Shown here: positions 1 through 13,010 of the stretch, piece by piece
How positions within the stretch are numbered: the stretch's first letter is position 1
How the letters are laid out: every line of letters begins with the position of its first letter
Virus record (IMG/VR): IMGVR_UViG_3300028920_000262
Span: 1-24,277 of that record
DNA from: a virus
Reading direction: 5' to 3' (one strand)
DNA length: 24,277 nt
Translations under genes and position numbers: made by a program
Notes under the pieces: model-generated
What the model saw: the letters and a program-made list of their open reading frames with translations, nothing else
Told to the model about the DNA's origin: nothing
Database searches by the model: none

Positions 1-118
1 CCCACTGCCAGTATGGAACGGTTCCTACTGGTGCGAGATCTTCGAGAAGGTTAGCCACCTCTCTAGCATTTGAGTTAGGCCCACCGAATACTTTTATTTG
101 CGTGAGTGCTGGTTCCAT
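1..118 (-). CDS. Hypothetical protein, N-terminal part (runs off the window)
   Basis: A minus-strand reading frame opens at an ATG at 118-116 and stays open to base 1, giving 39 residues beginning MEPALTQIKVFGGPNSNARE. The start overlaps the stop of the upstream gene by one base (TAATG), and an AGGAG lies about 10 bases upstream, inside the end of that gene. These features indicate translational coupling. I do not recognise the product, and too little is visible to assign a fold. Confidence 0.6.
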   Translation of the reverse strand, partial: MEPALTQIKVFGGPNSNAREVANLLEDLAPVGTVPYWQW

Positions 119-381
119 TAGACTGTGGCTCCTATCTGTGGTGATATGCGTGATTTGAGAAGTGGCGTCTGTCCGCTCTTCTTCTTGTTCTTGATCCGTT
201 CGAGCTCCCTTCGTAAGAGCTCGCCTTTAGTCACTTTCTCGACCAGGATTGGCATTATCGCCTGTGGCGGTTTCTCTCCGAGCAGCGCGACTGCCCTTTC
301 GTACTGTTCGGCCCAAGCTTTCGGGCCGATAGGTGTTGGCTTTCCATCTTGCAAGCCGTACCACTGAACGATGTAGAACAT
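118..381 (-). CDS. Hypothetical protein, 87 aa
   Basis: A short leftward gene with an excellent ribosome binding site: AAAGGAG followed by AAAGAGA and the ATG. The protein starts MFYIVQWYGLQDGKPTPIG and has a basic, probably helical C-terminal half with the run RIKNKKK near residues 62-68. No known domain or catalytic motif is evident. It is followed without a gap by another coupled leftward ORF, so the two likely share a transcript. Its leftward orientation, opposite to the packaging genes, and its small size fit the early region of a phage, where such proteins are often host-takeover or accessory factors; that role is inference only. The overlapping plus-strand frame lacks a ribosome binding site and is taken as a shadow. 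Confidence 0.7.
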   Translation of the reverse strand: MFYIVQWYGLQDGKPTPIGPKAWAEQYERAVALLGEKPPQAIMPILVEKVTKGELLRRELERIKNKKKSGQTPLLKSRISPQIGATV

Positions 382-671: not shown

Positions 672-930
672 ATTTGTAGCCCCTAGCCCCTAGCTCCACC
701 CATGCCCAAATCCTTTTTCGTGTGACACAGTTGAACACTTTGAGCGAGCCGATTTCTCTGAAACGGTTTCTCTGATCGCTCTCAAAGATCTCTCTTCAGA
801 AATATTTTTCTACTGAGAGAGTCCTTCTAAAAAATTTTTTACTTAGAACAGACTCACTGAACGCTCTCAACTTTGTAACACGGAATCAGATTTGGGCCCC
901 CCATAGAGCTAGCAGCTAGGGGCTACAAAT
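672..930. repeat. Large imperfect inverted repeat (arms 672-733 and 867-930)
   Basis: The left arm starts ATTTGTAGCCCCTAGC, and the reverse complement of the right arm starts with the same 16 bases. Both then share CTAGCTC, GCCCAAATC, CGTGT and AGTTGA in the same order, separated by short mismatched stretches of similar length. The arms are about 62-64 bases long and enclose about 133 bases. The inner segment has its own imperfect hairpins (CTTTGAGCGA with TCGCTCTCAAAG, and CTCTCTTCAG with CTGAGAGAG) and an A6T6 tract. The arms could form a cruciform or a long RNA hairpin, or be two opposed copies of a regulatory site. Confidence 0.75.
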
Positions 931-1004
931 AAAAATGGTGTTACACAGTTCAAAACGCTAGCTTGTGCTGAGAAGTGAAAAGCGCTCACAGAGCGCAAAA
1001 GAGA

Positions 1005-1039
1005 AAGGGGACCGAGCAAGTCTGTAACTCGGTCCCCTT
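1005..1039 (-). terminator. Intrinsic terminator of the leftward 66-aa gene
   Basis: AAGGGGACCGAG at 1005-1016 pairs perfectly over 12 bases with CTCGGTCCCCTT at 1028-1039 around an 11-base loop. Read leftward, the stem is followed by a T-rich stretch (TTTCTCTTTTGCG). It sits immediately after the stop codon of the leftward gene at 1045-1245. Confidence 0.85.
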
Positions 1040-1325: not shown

Positions 1326-1356
1326 GGGACCGGAGCCATTTTCTAGCTCCGGTCCC
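1326..1356 (-). terminator. Intrinsic terminator of the leftward 145-aa gene
   Basis: GGGACCGGAGC at 1326-1336 pairs perfectly with GCTCCGGTCCC at 1346-1356 around a 9-base loop. Read leftward it is followed by TTTTCGTTTATC. Its GGGACCG-GAG core resembles that of the terminator at 1005-1039, so the two are probably related copies. Confidence 0.85.
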
Positions 1357-1369
1357 AAGGTTGGAACGC

Positions 1370-1807
1370 TTAAGCTTCCATCATCGCTTTCATCATCTCG
1401 AGCGCTCGGGCTTGCTGCTCGGGCGACAGCTTCGAGAAATCCTTGATAGCCTTTTCCGGTGTCGGGACGGCCGTTGAGCGGGACAGCTTTTTGAACGTTG
1501 CGAGATCGATCGTGACGATCTCGCCGTCGTTCAAATCCTCGCGTTCGATACGTTCGCGCAACGTGGGAGCAAACGCGATAATGACACCTTCAAGCATCGC
1601 GGTGTAAGCATCGACCGAAAACTGCTTTTTGGCTTGCTCGAGAAGCCCCAACTGGTCTTGGACAACGATATTGACCTTGCGGGAATAATTGTCCTTCAAC
1701 GCCTTTTGATCCTCGGGGCTCGCGCTTTTGAACAGCTCCCGATCGTCCGCATTCCATCTAGCTTTCTCAAGCGTAACGCGACGGTTTTCGAAACGGATTG
1801 TAGCCAT
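1370..1807 (-). CDS. Hypothetical helical protein, 145 aa
   Basis: The frame is open further upstream to an ATG at 1978, but the ATG at 1807 is the better start. It has GGGAGA a few bases upstream, and the extra 57 residues would be read across two strong hairpins and a likely -10 box. The protein starts MATIRFENRRVTLEKARW. It is charged and mostly helical, with a central hydrophobic segment (about residues 67-82) too polar at its ends to be a clear membrane helix, and a Met-rich helical C-terminus. No known domain is recognised. It is the rightmost leftward gene, facing the divergent control region, and is closed by its own terminator. That position fits an early-expressed phage protein, possibly a nucleic-acid or host-factor binding protein; function unknown. 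Confidence 0.75.
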   Translation of the reverse strand: MATIRFENRRVTLEKARWNADDRELFKSASPEDQKALKDNYSRKVNIVVQDQLGLLEQAKKQFSVDAYTAMLEGVIIAFAPTLRERIEREDLNDGEIVTIDLATFKKLSRSTAVPTPEKAIKDFSKLSPEQQARALEMMKAMMEA

Positions 1808-2416: not shown

Positions 2417-2441
2417 GGAACATTTTATTACACAGTTGCGG
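2417..2441 (+). promoter_or_regulatory. Conserved phage intergenic motif, copy before the TerS operon
   Basis: CATTTTATTACACAGTTG (2421-2438) matches 16 of 18 positions with the copy before the portal gene (7990-8007). The flanking bases (AAC before, GG after) are shared too, giving 21 of 25 matches. GTGGAA (2415-2420) and TTACAC (2428-2433) form a one-mismatch dyad. The site lies about 75 bases upstream of the -35 box. Confidence 0.55.
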
Positions 2442-2494: not shown

Positions 2495-2543
2495 AAAATA
2501 TTATAAATTATAGCTTGACTTTCCAGACTGATTCTAGTATAAT
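2495..2543 (+). promoter_or_regulatory. Strong sigma70-type promoter for the packaging operon
   Basis: TTGACT (2515-2520) and TATAAT (2538-2543) are separated by exactly 17 bases and preceded by an A/T-only run resembling an UP element (2495-2511). Transcription would start near 2550, just before the GTG of the TerS-like gene at 2572. It reads into the rightward genes and indicates use of host housekeeping RNA polymerase. Confidence 0.85.
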
Positions 2544-2571: not shown

Positions 2572-3126
2572 GTGGCCACAACTTGGACAATTCAGCAATG
2601 CCGTCAGCAGCATAAGGAGATCAATCGGCTGGCTACTGCAGGCTATAAAGATAAAGAGATTGCTGATATGTTGCACATAGCGCCTGCGACTGTCCGGAAT
2701 ACTCTTGCGAGTCCTGTGACAGCGGAGCATAGACGAGAGCTGGAAGCTATGCGGGATGCAGCGACAGTGGATATAGCCAAAGATATTAAGTTGATGGCTC
2801 CTGCGGCGCTTGAGATCCTGAATAATATGATCCACTCGGAAGATACACAGAATGCTGTTAAGGCCAAAGTGTGTCTCTCGATATTGGATCGGGCTGGCTA
2901 CGGACCTGTGCAGAAGATGGAAACGCTGAATGCAAATGTCCACATAACGGCACATGATCTGAATGAGATAAAAGCGCGTGCGAGGACAATGGGAATCTTG
3001 CAAAAAGAGGAGAAGAGTGATGAAAGAACGATTGCTGGAACTGTTCACAAAGAAGACGACGATCGCGAGCCTGGGATTGATAGCAGTGGGCCTACTGATG
3101 TTGTTCGGGGTGAAACTTCCGGATAA
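2572..3126 (+). CDS. Terminase small subunit-like HTH protein
   Basis: This is the first gene after the strong promoter, using a GTG start with GGGAG 11 bases upstream; an ATG 18 bases earlier is followed at once by a stop. The N-terminal 50 residues contain a helix-turn-helix (AGYKDKEIADMLHIAPATV, about residues 23-41) of the kind used by small terminase subunits to bind the packaging site. A helical middle follows, ending in ILDRAGYGP (about residues 103-111), a motif I associate with phage TerS-like proteins. The C-terminus is hydrophilic and overlaps the next gene by 107 bases. Its role would be to recognise phage DNA and deliver it to TerL. The 184-aa length fits TerS. A transcriptional regulator with a similar HTH is the main alternative. 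Confidence 0.7.
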   Translation: MATTWTIQQCRQQHKEINRLATAGYKDKEIADMLHIAPATVRNTLASPVTAEHRRELEAMRDAATVDIAKDIKLMAPAALEILNNMIHSEDTQNAVKAKVCLSILDRAGYGPVQKMETLNANVHITAHDLNEIKARARTMGILQKEEKSDERTIAGTVHKEDDDREPGIDSSGPTDVVRGETSG

Positions 3127-4578: not shown

Positions 4579-6480
4579 ATGGCTGAGTTCGGACAGAACA
4601 GATACAAGATTTCAACTGCTCAGGCGTATGATGGGGATAATATCTCTATTGCTGCCCAGGTGGTTGACCCCGTGATGGTCCCAGTTGAGCGTAGGTACAT
4701 TCTGCTGGGAACGGATCCGGATAATCCTACGCCTGAGGTTAGTGGGCAGGAGATATCTCAGCAGCTGGAGTTGCTCGATGGGCAGCTGAAGGCTGGTAAG
4801 CACGTTGATCCAGGTGATGCAAACGAAGTTTATACCAGCGACTACACTGATGCAGTGAACAAGAAGCTGCAGCGAGCCATTCAGTTCACGGGTGCAGATA
4901 TCGGCGGCGAAGGTAACGTCTACAAGAGCATGTTCGTAGATTTGGGAGATAATCCTAAACTGAAAGGTCTTAACGACTTTACGTTTTGTTGCTGGATGCT
5001 TACTGAAACCGATCTTCTTTCTACCTACGTACACGATCCCACTGACGACGAGGACGAGAACCAGTTCACGCTGTTCGGTGGTGTAGGTATGTGGTTCTGG
5101 TTCCACAAGAACACATTAGGGCAGAAGATGATGTTCGCCGCTATGCGGGACGACTATGACCACATAAGTGGTTGGTACTACCGGATGGACGATGTGGGCA
5201 TTGACGTGGATGATGGAGACTGGCACCACATAGCGTTTATTTTTCTACGTTCTTCTGGAACTATGCGCTTCTACCATAATGGCTCAGGTGTGGATATGTC
5301 TCCACAGTCTGGCGTTGGTTGGGATTTAGTGGCTGACCAGGTTAGCCCTACGTTCACGGGCGAGGGACACGTTTGTATTGGCGGCTTCGATCTTGCGAGC
5401 CTTGGCAACGCGAACCACTTTGATATGAGCTGGCATTATATGGGCTGGCTAGACGACGTACGTTTTGGACATGTGGCGTGGTCAGACACGGAGATCGAAG
5501 CCGTCTATAACAGCGGGGATGGGACTGAGTTTGAGGCTGATCCTAACAAAGCCGACGTTGCAGACTGTCAACTGCTGCAAGCTACTTTCGCAGATCCTGA
5601 CGGCGACAAAGTCATCGACAATCCGTATACAGAAAATTACGGAGGAACGGGTCAGCTTAAGGGCACCAAGACAGACACGGAGCTGCACAACTATGACACT
5701 GTCTATGGACCTGGTGGAGTAGGCGTTGAGATTGCTGACTGTTGTTACTTTAAGCCTGGCTGGAATACTCGCATTTACTACGAGAACATTCCTGCACAGG
5801 TTCCTGAGCTAGAGGGCGAGCCTCTGGAGTTTGCGTTATCTTTGTGGATGCGACCAGAAGACGAGACTTTCTATGCTAACACGCGGCTACTGATGTGTAA
5901 GCAAGCCAAGGGTTCTGGGTATAAAGACTGGAGATTGGCTGTAACTGGCGGAAGCTCTAATGACTACTTGGTAAATATAGACTTTAAGTTGTGGGGTGGA
6001 GGAGCTGACAGGTACGTACAGGTGAAGTCTGCTAATCGCTGCTTCCACGAGTTCGATCAGGGTGAAGAAGTAACAACGATAAAGACTCCTATCTGGCGCC
6101 ACATCGTGATAAACGTTCTTGCAGGGCAAAGTAAGAACCCCGCGGATATGATTAAGATCTACGTGGATGGCATACAGGATCGCCAGGTGTGGAGCAAATA
6201 CCACCGATTCAAAGATCCTGAAGATCGCGGAGACCTGGTAGTTGTCGGCGGGAATGTTGGAAACACGAACGGAATGAAAGGCTATATGGCCGACGTTCGG
6301 ATGTTCAACAGAACCCTTTCGTATAATGAGATTCAGTACTTGTACGGAGACGGAACTGGAACCTTCTCTTTGAGTGGTTCTGAGTGGGACGTGCGATACA
6401 AGACGCTGGGATATTGGAAGATGAACGACAATCGGGCAACGTCCCGAGTTCGGAACAACCACTATGCGCCAAGATCCTGA
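4579..6480 (+). CDS. Large protein with two LamG/concanavalin-like lectin domains
   Basis: 633 aa, starting two bases after the previous stop; the ribosome binding site is weak, so translation is probably coupled. After an N-terminal region of about 100 residues that may attach to the virion, two jelly-roll domains of the LamG type follow. The first (about 115-310) has DDGDWHHIAFIF, MRFYHNG, GWLDDVRFG and YNSGDGTE; the second (about 385-620) has WRHIVINVLAG, KIYVDGIQD, GYMADVRMFNRTLS and LYGDGTG. Such domains usually bind carbohydrates with calcium, and in phages they are found on tail fibres and receptor-binding proteins. No signal peptide is present, unlike the LamG protein at 11430. Likely a tail or head fibre that contacts the host surface. 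Confidence 0.7.
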   Translation: MAEFGQNRYKISTAQAYDGDNISIAAQVVDPVMVPVERRYILLGTDPDNPTPEVSGQEISQQLELLDGQLKAGKHVDPGDANEVYTSDYTDAVNKKLQRAIQFTGADIGGEGNVYKSMFVDLGDNPKLKGLNDFTFCCWMLTETDLLSTYVHDPTDDEDENQFTLFGGVGMWFWFHKNTLGQKMMFAAMRDDYDHISGWYYRMDDVGIDVDDGDWHHIAFIFLRSSGTMRFYHNGSGVDMSPQSGVGWDLVADQVSPTFTGEGHVCIGGFDLASLGNANHFDMSWHYMGWLDDVRFGHVAWSDTEIEAVYNSGDGTEFEADPNKADVADCQLLQATFADPDGDKVIDNPYTENYGGTGQLKGTKTDTELHNYDTVYGPGGVGVEIADCCYFKPGWNTRIYYENIPAQVPELEGEPLEFALSLWMRPEDETFYANTRLLMCKQAKGSGYKDWRLAVTGGSSNDYLVNIDFKLWGGGADRYVQVKSANRCFHEFDQGEEVTTIKTPIWRHIVINVLAGQSKNPADMIKIYVDGIQDRQVWSKYHRFKDPEDRGDLVVVGGNVGNTNGMKGYMADVRMFNRTLSYNEIQYLYGDGTGTFSLSGSEWDVRYKTLGYWKMNDNRATSRVRNNHYAPRS

Positions 6481-11070: not shown

Positions 11071-11418
11071 ATGGGAAATGTTCTTGCTGAAATGGGAATG
11101 GCGGGTCAGCCCGCTGAAAACGTTAATCGAATTACTGCGACGGGTTCGATTAACGTGTACGACCAGGTGAATATCGTTGACACGTCGAGTGGTGCGGTGG
11201 CTGTGACGCTGCCAAGTGTGGCTGAGGCGAAGGGTCGTCTGTATAGCTTCATTAAGATTGGTGGCGGAACGAACGCGCTGACGCTGCTTACGCTGTCTGA
11301 CGACGCTCCGACTATCACGGCGGTTGAAGCTCTGAGCATGGAAGATGACAACGACGGATGTGTTCTGTACAGCGATGGTATTAGCTGGTGGATCATGGCG
11401 TCGCAGCAAGCGGACTAA
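11071..11418 (+). CDS. Small beta-rich structural protein, 115 aa
   Basis: AAGGAG lies nine bases before the ATG. The protein has a short N-terminal leader (MGNVLAEMGMAGQPAENVN), then a compact beta domain with VAVTLPSVAEAKGRLYSFIK, NALTLLTLSDD and a final GCVLYSDGISWWIMA. Domains of this pattern, with a LPS-containing strand and a final dG-x-W strand, occur in phage capsid decoration and fibre-tip proteins. The C-terminus of the protein at 15946 has a related layout (SATVQFDDGTSM, HWVELA). A head decoration or fibre component is likely. A perfect 12-bp inverted repeat lies inside its coding sequence (11120-11156). No signal peptide. Confidence 0.65.
   Translation: MGNVLAEMGMAGQPAENVNRITATGSINVYDQVNIVDTSSGAVAVTLPSVAEAKGRLYSFIKIGGGTNALTLLTLSDDAPTITAVEALSMEDDNDGCVLYSDGISWWIMASQQAD
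11120..11156 (+). other. Perfect 12-bp inverted repeat inside a coding region
   Basis: ACGTTAATCGAA (11120-11131) and TTCGATTAACGT (11145-11156) are perfect reverse complements with a 13-base loop. They fall at codons 17-29 of the small beta protein, so the mRNA could form a hairpin shortly after the start. Confidence 0.6.
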
Positions 11419-11429
11419 GGATCAGTCTT

Positions 11430-13010
11430 ATGCGGACTCTGTTTTTAGTGGCTCTCGTGTTACTAGCGGGAGCCACTGCTACAGCTTGGACAGGAAGCTC
11501 TGTTTGCGATGAGACTGAAGCTCATTGGAAACTGAATGATAGTGCGTATGGTGTTAACGTAGATGATTCGTCAGGCGTTAACGACGGCTTGCTGCGTGTT
11601 CGTGCTCAGACCAAAGATGTTGCCACGAGCGGTATTGTGGGAACTGGTGGCTTTGCGCTGGCTAGGCAGTGGGTGGATTGTGGAGAAGCTGTTGCTCTAA
11701 ACAATATGTTTGTGAGTGAGCTTTACACGAAGTGGGTGTTCAGTTGCTGGATTCGGACGAAGAGACCTAGCGAGACTATTCTTGCTCAATGGGGAGACTC
11801 GACCGATGATCAGTGTTTTAGGCTCTATATCAATTCCAGTGGTTACGTACAGTTCGAGCAGCGTGATGAGGACGGAGTTTTATATTCTACTGTGGGCCAC
11901 ACTTCAGTTCTTGGCGGAAGTAACTATCATATTGCTGTAGCTATTGAGCCGCCAGATGCGATAGTGTATCTTAACACGCTGAACGATTGTTTGACGACTG
12001 GAACCAGCTCGACGGATTGGGAACAGACGCTTTATCACTTGAGGATTGGAAAAGCGGATGGGTCGTACTATACTGAGGGAGACTTTGTTGGATTGCTGGA
12101 TGACCTTCGTGTGATAAATTGCACGGATTTCTCTACGACAGAGATTGCTCAGGTGGTTGCAGATCTGTATAATAGCGGAGACGGGACGGAAGAGTGCAGC
12201 ACTACTTCTACTGCGGATTTGACTTATGCTGACTACGCGACAACGGCTACGTATGCAACGACTGCTGGAAGCGCGACGACTGCAACGAGTGCGACAAGCG
12301 CAGATACAGCAACGACGGCAAGTGTTGCGCTTGTTGCTCTTACGGCTTCGACCGTTACTAATGCTGCTACCGCGGATTATGCGACAGCTGCTGGGAGCGC
12401 TGGGACGGCTACTACGGCAACTGTGGCACTTGACGCCCAGACGTTGAATGGTGAGAGTGGTAGCGCTTTCGCGGATGCTTCGCATACTCATGCTGCGACA
12501 GATGTGATAAGTGGCACGTTTAGTGATAGTAGAATTCCGACAACTGTGACGAGAGACACTGAGTGGAACTCTGTTGCAAAGATTGAGACAAATACTGGTG
12601 AGGATATTATCACTAGTGATGAGATAGGAGCTTACGATGACTTCACCACGTCTTCCATTACAGGAACAGGTAGTGGGCTTTCTGTTGGAAACCTTGTATA
12701 TCTCGATAGTACGAGTACTTGGACTCTGGCGGATGCTGACACGACTCCTGCGATGGCTGTCGTCACGGACAATTCGACGATAAGAGTGCAGACGGATAAT
12801 ATTTGCTACGTGTGTGTTGACTTGAGTGGTGCTACTATAGGTGATGTGTTGTTCTTGTCCCACTATGCTGGCTACGCGACAAGTGATCTGATGGATGAGC
12901 CAGGGATGTATCAAGTGATTGGTACGAGTCTTGAGACCAGAAGTGGCTCTGGACTTGTTCGGTGTTTGATTTCGATAGATAGAAGCCCAATATGGAGGAA
13001 TGAAGAATGA
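11430..13010 (+). CDS. Secreted LamG/tail-fibre-like protein with signal peptide
   Basis: The start is set at the ATG at 11430, after TAAGGA, because the protein then opens with a clean Sec signal peptide: MRTLFLVALVLLAGATATA, with cleavage before W20. The 526-aa product has a LamG-like jelly roll (about 25-255) with AHWKLNDS, FSCWIR, LLDDLRV and YNSGDGTE, the last shared with the large LamG protein at 4579. A low-complexity Ala/Thr stretch (about 260-337) follows, then the tail-fibre motif LNGESGSAFADASHTHAAT and SGTFSDSRIP, and a beta-rich C-terminal domain. Fibre-type organisation with an export signal is unusual and suggests a protein acting in the envelope or outside the cell. It heads a block of six such genes. 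Confidence 0.7.
   Translation: MRTLFLVALVLLAGATATAWTGSSVCDETEAHWKLNDSAYGVNVDDSSGVNDGLLRVRAQTKDVATSGIVGTGGFALARQWVDCGEAVALNNMFVSELYTKWVFSCWIRTKRPSETILAQWGDSTDDQCFRLYINSSGYVQFEQRDEDGVLYSTVGHTSVLGGSNYHIAVAIEPPDAIVYLNTLNDCLTTGTSSTDWEQTLYHLRIGKADGSYYTEGDFVGLLDDLRVINCTDFSTTEIAQVVADLYNSGDGTEECSTTSTADLTYADYATTATYATTAGSATTATSATSADTATTASVALVALTASTVTNAATADYATAAGSAGTATTATVALDAQTLNGESGSAFADASHTHAATDVISGTFSDSRIPTTVTRDTEWNSVAKIETNTGEDIITSDEIGAYDDFTTSSITGTGSGLSVGNLVYLDSTSTWTLADADTTPAMAVVTDNSTIRVQTDNICYVCVDLSGATIGDVLFLSHYAGYATSDLMDEPGMYQVIGTSLETRSGSGLVRCLISIDRSPIWRNEE

Follow-up and report, generated by a model that had tools for sequence, protein, structure and literature searches.

Known systems with a comparable layout

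In the SV40-type control region, an internal origin lies between divergent early and late genes, and inverted initiator-binding repeats, an AT-tract and an early promoter are gathered in one compact region. In iteron origins, such as those of lambda and P4, tandem repeats lie next to an AT-rich unwinding region, and the replication genes belong to the adjoining early operon. RHH proteins such as ParR, Omega and MetJ bind arrays of tandem 7-11-bp sites and are encoded nearby; proteins of this type are known mainly for repression and partition, and less for initiation. Finally, hairpin formation by a palindrome near the genome end has been proposed for T7 as a step in the processing of terminal repeats.

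The locus described here resembles several of these systems in part. Like the SV40-type region, it lies between early and late genes and has inverted repeats, an AT-tract and an early promoter, a likeness of layout and not of homology; unlike it, its arms are much longer and far more diverged, and they carry repeats of ~7-9 bp in part of the relatives. As in iteron origins, tandem repeats adjoin an AT-rich region and the replication genes lie in the neighboring early operon, but no Rep gene was recognized, the repeats form two mirrored sets, one per arm of the long inverted repeat, and the copy in the window has no clear repeat array. The short tandem sites and an RHH-like protein encoded nearby (protein A) recall the RHH arrays; the element differs from these in its mirror symmetry around an AT-rich core and in that no partition ATPase was identified beside it, and protein A is itself assigned to the RHH family only weakly, with a best Z of 3.9.

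The inverted repeat is a cis-acting DNA element between a leftward early (replication) operon and a rightward late (terS, structural) operon. Its most likely function, to which we give about an even chance, is that of a replication origin combined with an early control region. Literature searches, of incomplete coverage, returned no description of such an element.

The inverted repeat in its genome

The window is the whole 24,277-base virus record, a 24-kb fragment of an uncultured phage with an SU10-type capsid and portal. The proteins encoded to the right of position 2572 include terS and terL as well as a portal and a major capsid protein, both of SU10 type; on the left side, the small ORFs that are plausible genes point leftward. 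In the following list, ORFs and start codons are mechanical calls, and promoters and terminators are consensus matches.

118-381, minus strand: small leftward ORF of 87 aa, the first early-side gene in the fragment
672-748, no strand: left arm of the inverted repeat (outer part 672-696, inner part 704-748)
723-732, plus strand: TTACACAGTT-like site with 1 mismatch, in the left arm
749-852, no strand: AT-rich center, resembling an unwinding element, with A6T6 at 829-840
853-930, no strand: right arm of the inverted repeat
869-878, minus strand: TTACACAGTT-like site with 1 mismatch, in the right arm and in opposite orientation
897-902, plus strand: C6 run at the inner/outer junction of the right arm
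941-950, plus strand: exact TTACACAGTT, just outside the right arm
1005-1039, minus strand: likely leftward terminator (12-bp perfect stem, then a T-rich tail) that would shield the element
1326-1356, minus strand: predicted strong intrinsic terminator (13-bp stem) of the leftward gene 1370-1807
1370-1807, minus strand: leftward ORF of 145 aa, in the place of protein B of the relatives
2428-2437, plus strand: exact TTACACAGTT, ~80 bp upstream of the late/terS promoter
2515-2543, plus strand: near-consensus sigma-70 promoter TTGACT-17-TATAAT of the late operon/terS
2572-3126, plus strand: terS (terminase small subunit), the first late gene and the anchor for the conserved position of the element

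The imperfect inverted repeat spans 672-930, and its arms were delimited by an inverted-pair search and by a BLAST self-match. It consists of an outer pair of 25 nt (672-696/906-930; 92% complementary) and an inner pair of 45 nt (704-748/853-897; 73% complementary). A preliminary description of this DNA had reported arms of ~62 bases; the repeat is real, and its arms are slightly longer, at about 78 bp each. The first 16 bases match exactly, as had been noted, and the motif said to occur in opposite orientations in the arms is the TTACACAGTT-like site at 723-732 and 869-878. When the region was compared with its own genome by BLAST, the arms were recovered as reverse copies, 77% identical over 63-64 bp (E 1e-7). 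The ungapped repeat score of 21 was reached by none of 300 dinucleotide shuffles of 1-2571 (shuffle maximum 17), and the fold, for which a check of both strands had been suggested, gave RNA folding z values of -11.5 on the plus strand and -10.1 on the minus strand, with no shuffle equally good. The repeat is therefore far above chance; it is this score that counts, and the earlier remark that the arms differ by substitutions of equal length adds little weight. The region is also gene-free, as had been stated, in that the ORF list of the window contains no ORF of at least 60 aa over 672-930.

The central 80 bp of the repeat are 67.5% AT, against 50% in the flanks. The hairpins at 1326-1356 and 1005-1039, judged from their sequence, would halt leftward transcripts before the repeat; the second was found as an inverted pair, its 11-nt loop exceeding the limit of the terminator scan, which for this reason did not list it. 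With up to one mismatch, TTACACAGTT occurs 7 times in the window against 1.4 expected, and downstream of the exact copy at 2428-2437 lies A6T6 (2452-2463), which the repeat also contains.

Other features of the window lie outside the repeat. The leader that separates the repeat from the leftward ORF 118-381 carries, on the minus strand of 424-599, four CTRGAGTAGG-like copies (599-590, 545-536, 475-466, 433-424), and ahead of each lies a short sequence able to form a hairpin. A second repeat-rich zone, at 1980-2160 between the 1370-1807 gene and terS, contains a direct repeat of TGATTTYATTGGATTTAC (at 1991 and 2076, 85 bp apart) and several CGTCAAA/TTTGACG sites, including the palindrome 2029-2044. 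Large proteins, encoded at 4579-6480 between terS and terL and at 11388-13010 between the portal and capsid genes, have by eye a lectin/LamG-type look; the gene content between terS and terL varies greatly among relatives.

Conservation of position among related phages

Relatives were collected with the capsid protein, which gave 55 loci (the nearer ones at about 45-58% identity), and with an alignment of terL, which gave 80 loci from viruses and 9 from genome collections; upstream regions and complete phage records were added to the comparison set. For the main count, terS was located by profile and near-identical loci were removed, giving 36 distinct loci with at least 2.6 kb upstream of terS; the members of one close trio (L162, L166, and L177) were still counted there as three loci. 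Among these 36 loci, which are not phylogenetically independent, a gapped inverted repeat exceeded the maximum of its own shuffles in 35 and was strong in 31. The repeats measure 100-550 bp and are centered 0.15-3.2 kb upstream of terS, in the gap between the leftward early genes and the rightward late genes. Upstream of terL, the best ungapped repeat scored at least 19 in 31 of 58 loci, a set in which many sequences stop before the repeat site, compared with 1 of 290 shuffles; the same kind of search downstream of terL gave 2 of 53.

Ten deposited genomes, complete or long, were searched over their whole length; in 7 of them the top repeat, alone or tied with another, falls in the early/late gap. 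These are Desulfofustis phage MD01, Vibrio VS-ABTNL-3, Microcystis Mel-JY34, PaP2, Tiera, Aeromonas P5, and ct2os315, although in PaP2, Aeromonas P5, and ct2os315 the repeat is short or a simple AT repeat and could be a different element. CRP-810 and EBPR podovirus 3 have no strong repeat in this gap, and the best repeat of Kuura lies elsewhere and is no stronger than in shuffles. Some relatives (L184, L185, L186, and L187) carry two or three long inverted repeats in the gap. This terminase type is also encoded by several 45-50 kb contigs deposited as parts of 'bacterial' or 'archaeal' MAGs (L184-L191; e.g., JAUUZE010000001.1 'Clostridia' and JAUVES010000001.1 'Nanohaloarchaea'), which seem to be phage genomes that were placed in cellular bins.

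The repeats of different phages mostly cannot be aligned, small subgroups excepted. A comparable element is nonetheless present at the same locus in relatives, which indicates a maintained feature and not a chance palindrome. No close relatives of the window itself were found by terL, by the gene 1370-1807, or by terS patterns, and a blastn search of 400-2571 against phages gave no match. Two sequence patterns were set aside: TTTGTAGCCCCTAGC matched 25 viral contigs, none with a partner arm nearby, as expected by chance, and GTGTTACACAGTT..GCGAG had a single match, in an unrelated contig.

Two kinds of mobile or switching DNA were also considered and rejected. A transposon or MITE is not indicated, since no flanking duplication is seen at 671/931 and the relatives have mostly unrelated sequence at the same genomic position. 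An invertible DNA switch would occur in both orientations, which is not what the polarity of the central T tract shows (plus strand in 19 loci, minus strand in 1).

Anatomy of the element

The layout is kept even though the sequence is not: arm repeats, an AT-rich center, C/G runs, a promoter on the left and terminators on the right. From outside to inside, the order is short tandem repeats, a C or G run, and the AT-rich center. The tandem repeats are ~7-9 bp long and have opposite orientations in the two arms; examples are ATGTTAAAC, CGGTTAAAA, TTACAATGG, and GGTAAGAAT. Pooled over loci, the arms show a period of 9 bp (z of 10.4, 7.5, and 4.0 at lags 9, 18, and 27); taken singly, 11 of 37 loci have a z of at least 2 at lag 9 and the others peak at lag 7 or 8. 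C or G runs lie in many relatives at places comparable to that of the C6 run in the window, and in L109, L153, L085, and VS-ABTNL-3 the run is on the same strand in both arms.

The central 80 bp are 72.7% AT against 56.5% in the flanks, and richer than the flanks in 34 of 35 loci (p 4e-10). An AT-rich unwinding region, as looked for in a theta-type origin, is thus found in these 34 loci and in the window. In 23 of the 35, the most AT-rich 60-mer within 2 kb on either side lies inside the element. The center often contains a T tract of 8-17 nt with fixed polarity: among tracts of at least 8 near the middle, 22 are T on the plus strand and 1 is an A tract, compared with 10 tracts in 180 kb of flanks. 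Counted by locus, the 19 that carry the long T tract on the plus strand have it on the late-gene strand.

Transcription signals are also arranged in a consistent manner. Near-consensus sigma-70 promoters number 20 around the element, against 2.3 expected; in 14 loci the -35 box lies on the left edge of the repeat or close to it, and the promoter reads leftward, outwards, whereas in three (L091, L095, and L100) it reads into the repeat. Leftward terminators occur within 900 bp to the right of the element in 13 loci, against 0.2 expected. With an outward promoter on the left and leftward terminators on the right, the element would lie mostly outside transcription units, and we read it from these predicted signals as a mostly untranscribed DNA element.

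Two further signals were sought. No perfect DnaA box was found, and the density of one-mismatch boxes is 1.76 times that of the flanks. In five complete genomes the GC-skew minimum falls within about 1.9 kb of the repeat, a value that is confounded with gene direction.

The window copy is a reduced example. It lacks the 9-bp period (best lag 7, z 2.4), has A6T6 instead of a T8 tract, and has no consensus promoter at its left edge. With periodicity, T8 tract, and promoter lacking there, and protein A absent from the short left flank, the origin assignment for this copy is drawn from position, symmetry, AT-rich center, and flanking terminators.

Neighboring proteins and a proposed mechanism

Two leftward proteins accompany the element in relatives. 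Protein A is encoded in 20 loci and in several is the first gene, 50-85 bp to the left of the repeat; it is absent from the left flank of the window, which is too short to show it. Protein B is encoded in 15 loci, usually to the right of the repeat, and no sequence match was detected between it and the 1370-1807 ORF of the window. In a confident structure prediction, the N-terminal domain of protein A consists of an extended segment followed by helices 17-29 and 37-54. Searched alone, this domain has as its best structural matches the RHH antitoxins AtaR2 (Z 3.9) and TacA2 (Z 3.4), below the confident level; a Foldseek search with the whole model and a comparison of the sequence profile with solved structures returned nothing useful. 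In one subgroup (L087, L091, and L095), the strand residues of protein A appear by eye to correlate with the repeat sequence, which is not a general pattern. Neither protein A nor the genes beside the element in complete genomes matched a known initiator family. In the complete relative MD01, polymerase, primase, and ligase are encoded in the early operon.

Position, arm symmetry, AT-rich center, frequent polar T-tract, arm repeats, early promoter, and terminators all emerge directly from the computations. Upon these, the following mechanism may be proposed. A DNA-binding protein, perhaps the RHH-like protein A, whose gene adjoins the element in several relatives, or else another initiator, would bind the oppositely oriented repeats of both arms. 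This binding would open the AT-rich center, where the phage polymerase and primase would begin copying, and early transcription would be controlled there as well. Between phages the element changes quickly and yet keeps its layout, which may mean that it is the bound sites that matter and not the exact sequence.

Alternative explanations

Of the functions listed in the preliminary description, an origin or opposed binding sites fit best, as putative assignments, and a long RNA hairpin fares badly. The strongest competitor, unlikely but to be taken seriously, is that the element is an operator array only, where a regulator such as protein A binds the mirrored repeats and so represses or activates the divergent early and late promoters, with no role in the initiation of replication. 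The near-consensus early promoter at the left edge in 14 loci would suit this, as would the predicted RHH-like N-terminal fold of protein A beside the element in several phages and the repetition of the TTACACAGTT site near the terS promoter of the window. However, a length of 100-550 bp with an AT-rich center and a polar T tract is more than a typical autoregulatory operator has, and in most phages there is a promoter on one side only.

A site for packaging or concatemer processing, where a palindrome near the genome end would form a hairpin as terminal repeats are processed, is improbable. Proximity to terS speaks for it, as do the direct terminal repeats of 606 bp in Kuura (PMC9959647), whose record has its ends in this early/late gap, and the terminally redundant ends of Shea, a relative of PaP2 (PMC13348215). 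Yet Kuura, whose ends are mapped, has no repeat in that gap, the repeats of Tiera and PaP2 lie 0.9-1.2 kb from the record ends and not at them, and the element is on the early side of gene B, amid terminators and an early promoter.

More doubtful still is a structured RNA, that is, a long hairpin transcript acting as a regulatory, sponge, or decoy RNA. The predicted fold is very stable on both strands, and the promoters that read into the repeat in three relatives could produce such a transcript. A first count of mismatches had also suggested a strand bias, which mostly vanished with a composition control: G.T (G.U) pairs on the plus strand are at 0.97 of expectation, and A.C mismatches on the plus strand, equivalent to G.U on the minus strand, show a modest excess at 1.23 times expectation. 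The largest excess is that of C.C mismatches, which stems from C runs that both arms carry on the same strand; where this occurs, as in several phages, that part of the arms cannot pair. Moreover, pairs of related phages differ by only 0-3 double compensatory changes each, whereas single changes that break a pair are common, a pattern that suits DNA sites and goes against an RNA helix kept by selection. Flanked by terminators on the right and by a promoter that points away on the left, the element would mostly stay out of transcripts, and the window has no Rfam match at the gathering threshold.

The least probable reading is that the element serves as a partition (centromere) site, to which an RHH-type partition protein would bind in an episomal carrier state: centromeres are not usually laid out with strong symmetry about an AT-rich center, and a non-systematic look identified no ParA/ParM-type partner beside the element, despite the RHH-like protein A, the short tandem repeats and the reported persistence of the PaP2-like phage Shea as an episome (PMC13348215).

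Significance for phage replication

Beyond the window, and held tentatively, at a little under even confidence for the whole of it, the origin and early-control reading may extend to an unannotated element present throughout the lineage and defined by its layout and not by its sequence: a mirrored array of 100-550 bp built around an AT-rich core that carries a polar T-tract. Such an element would sit between the early and late genes in a gap shielded from transcription, and its two arms would change jointly and so rapidly that in distant relatives the sequence there could no longer be aligned.

For most phages, and for uncultured ones in particular, the origin of replication is not known. If the proposal is true, a signature of layout (a mirror-symmetric repeat, an AT-rich core, a polar T-tract, an outward early promoter and shielding terminators) would predict origins and early control regions where there is no sequence similarity to follow. 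It would apply to a large group of environmental podovirus-like phages, among whose deposited members are PaP2 and Vibrio phage VS-ABTNL-3.
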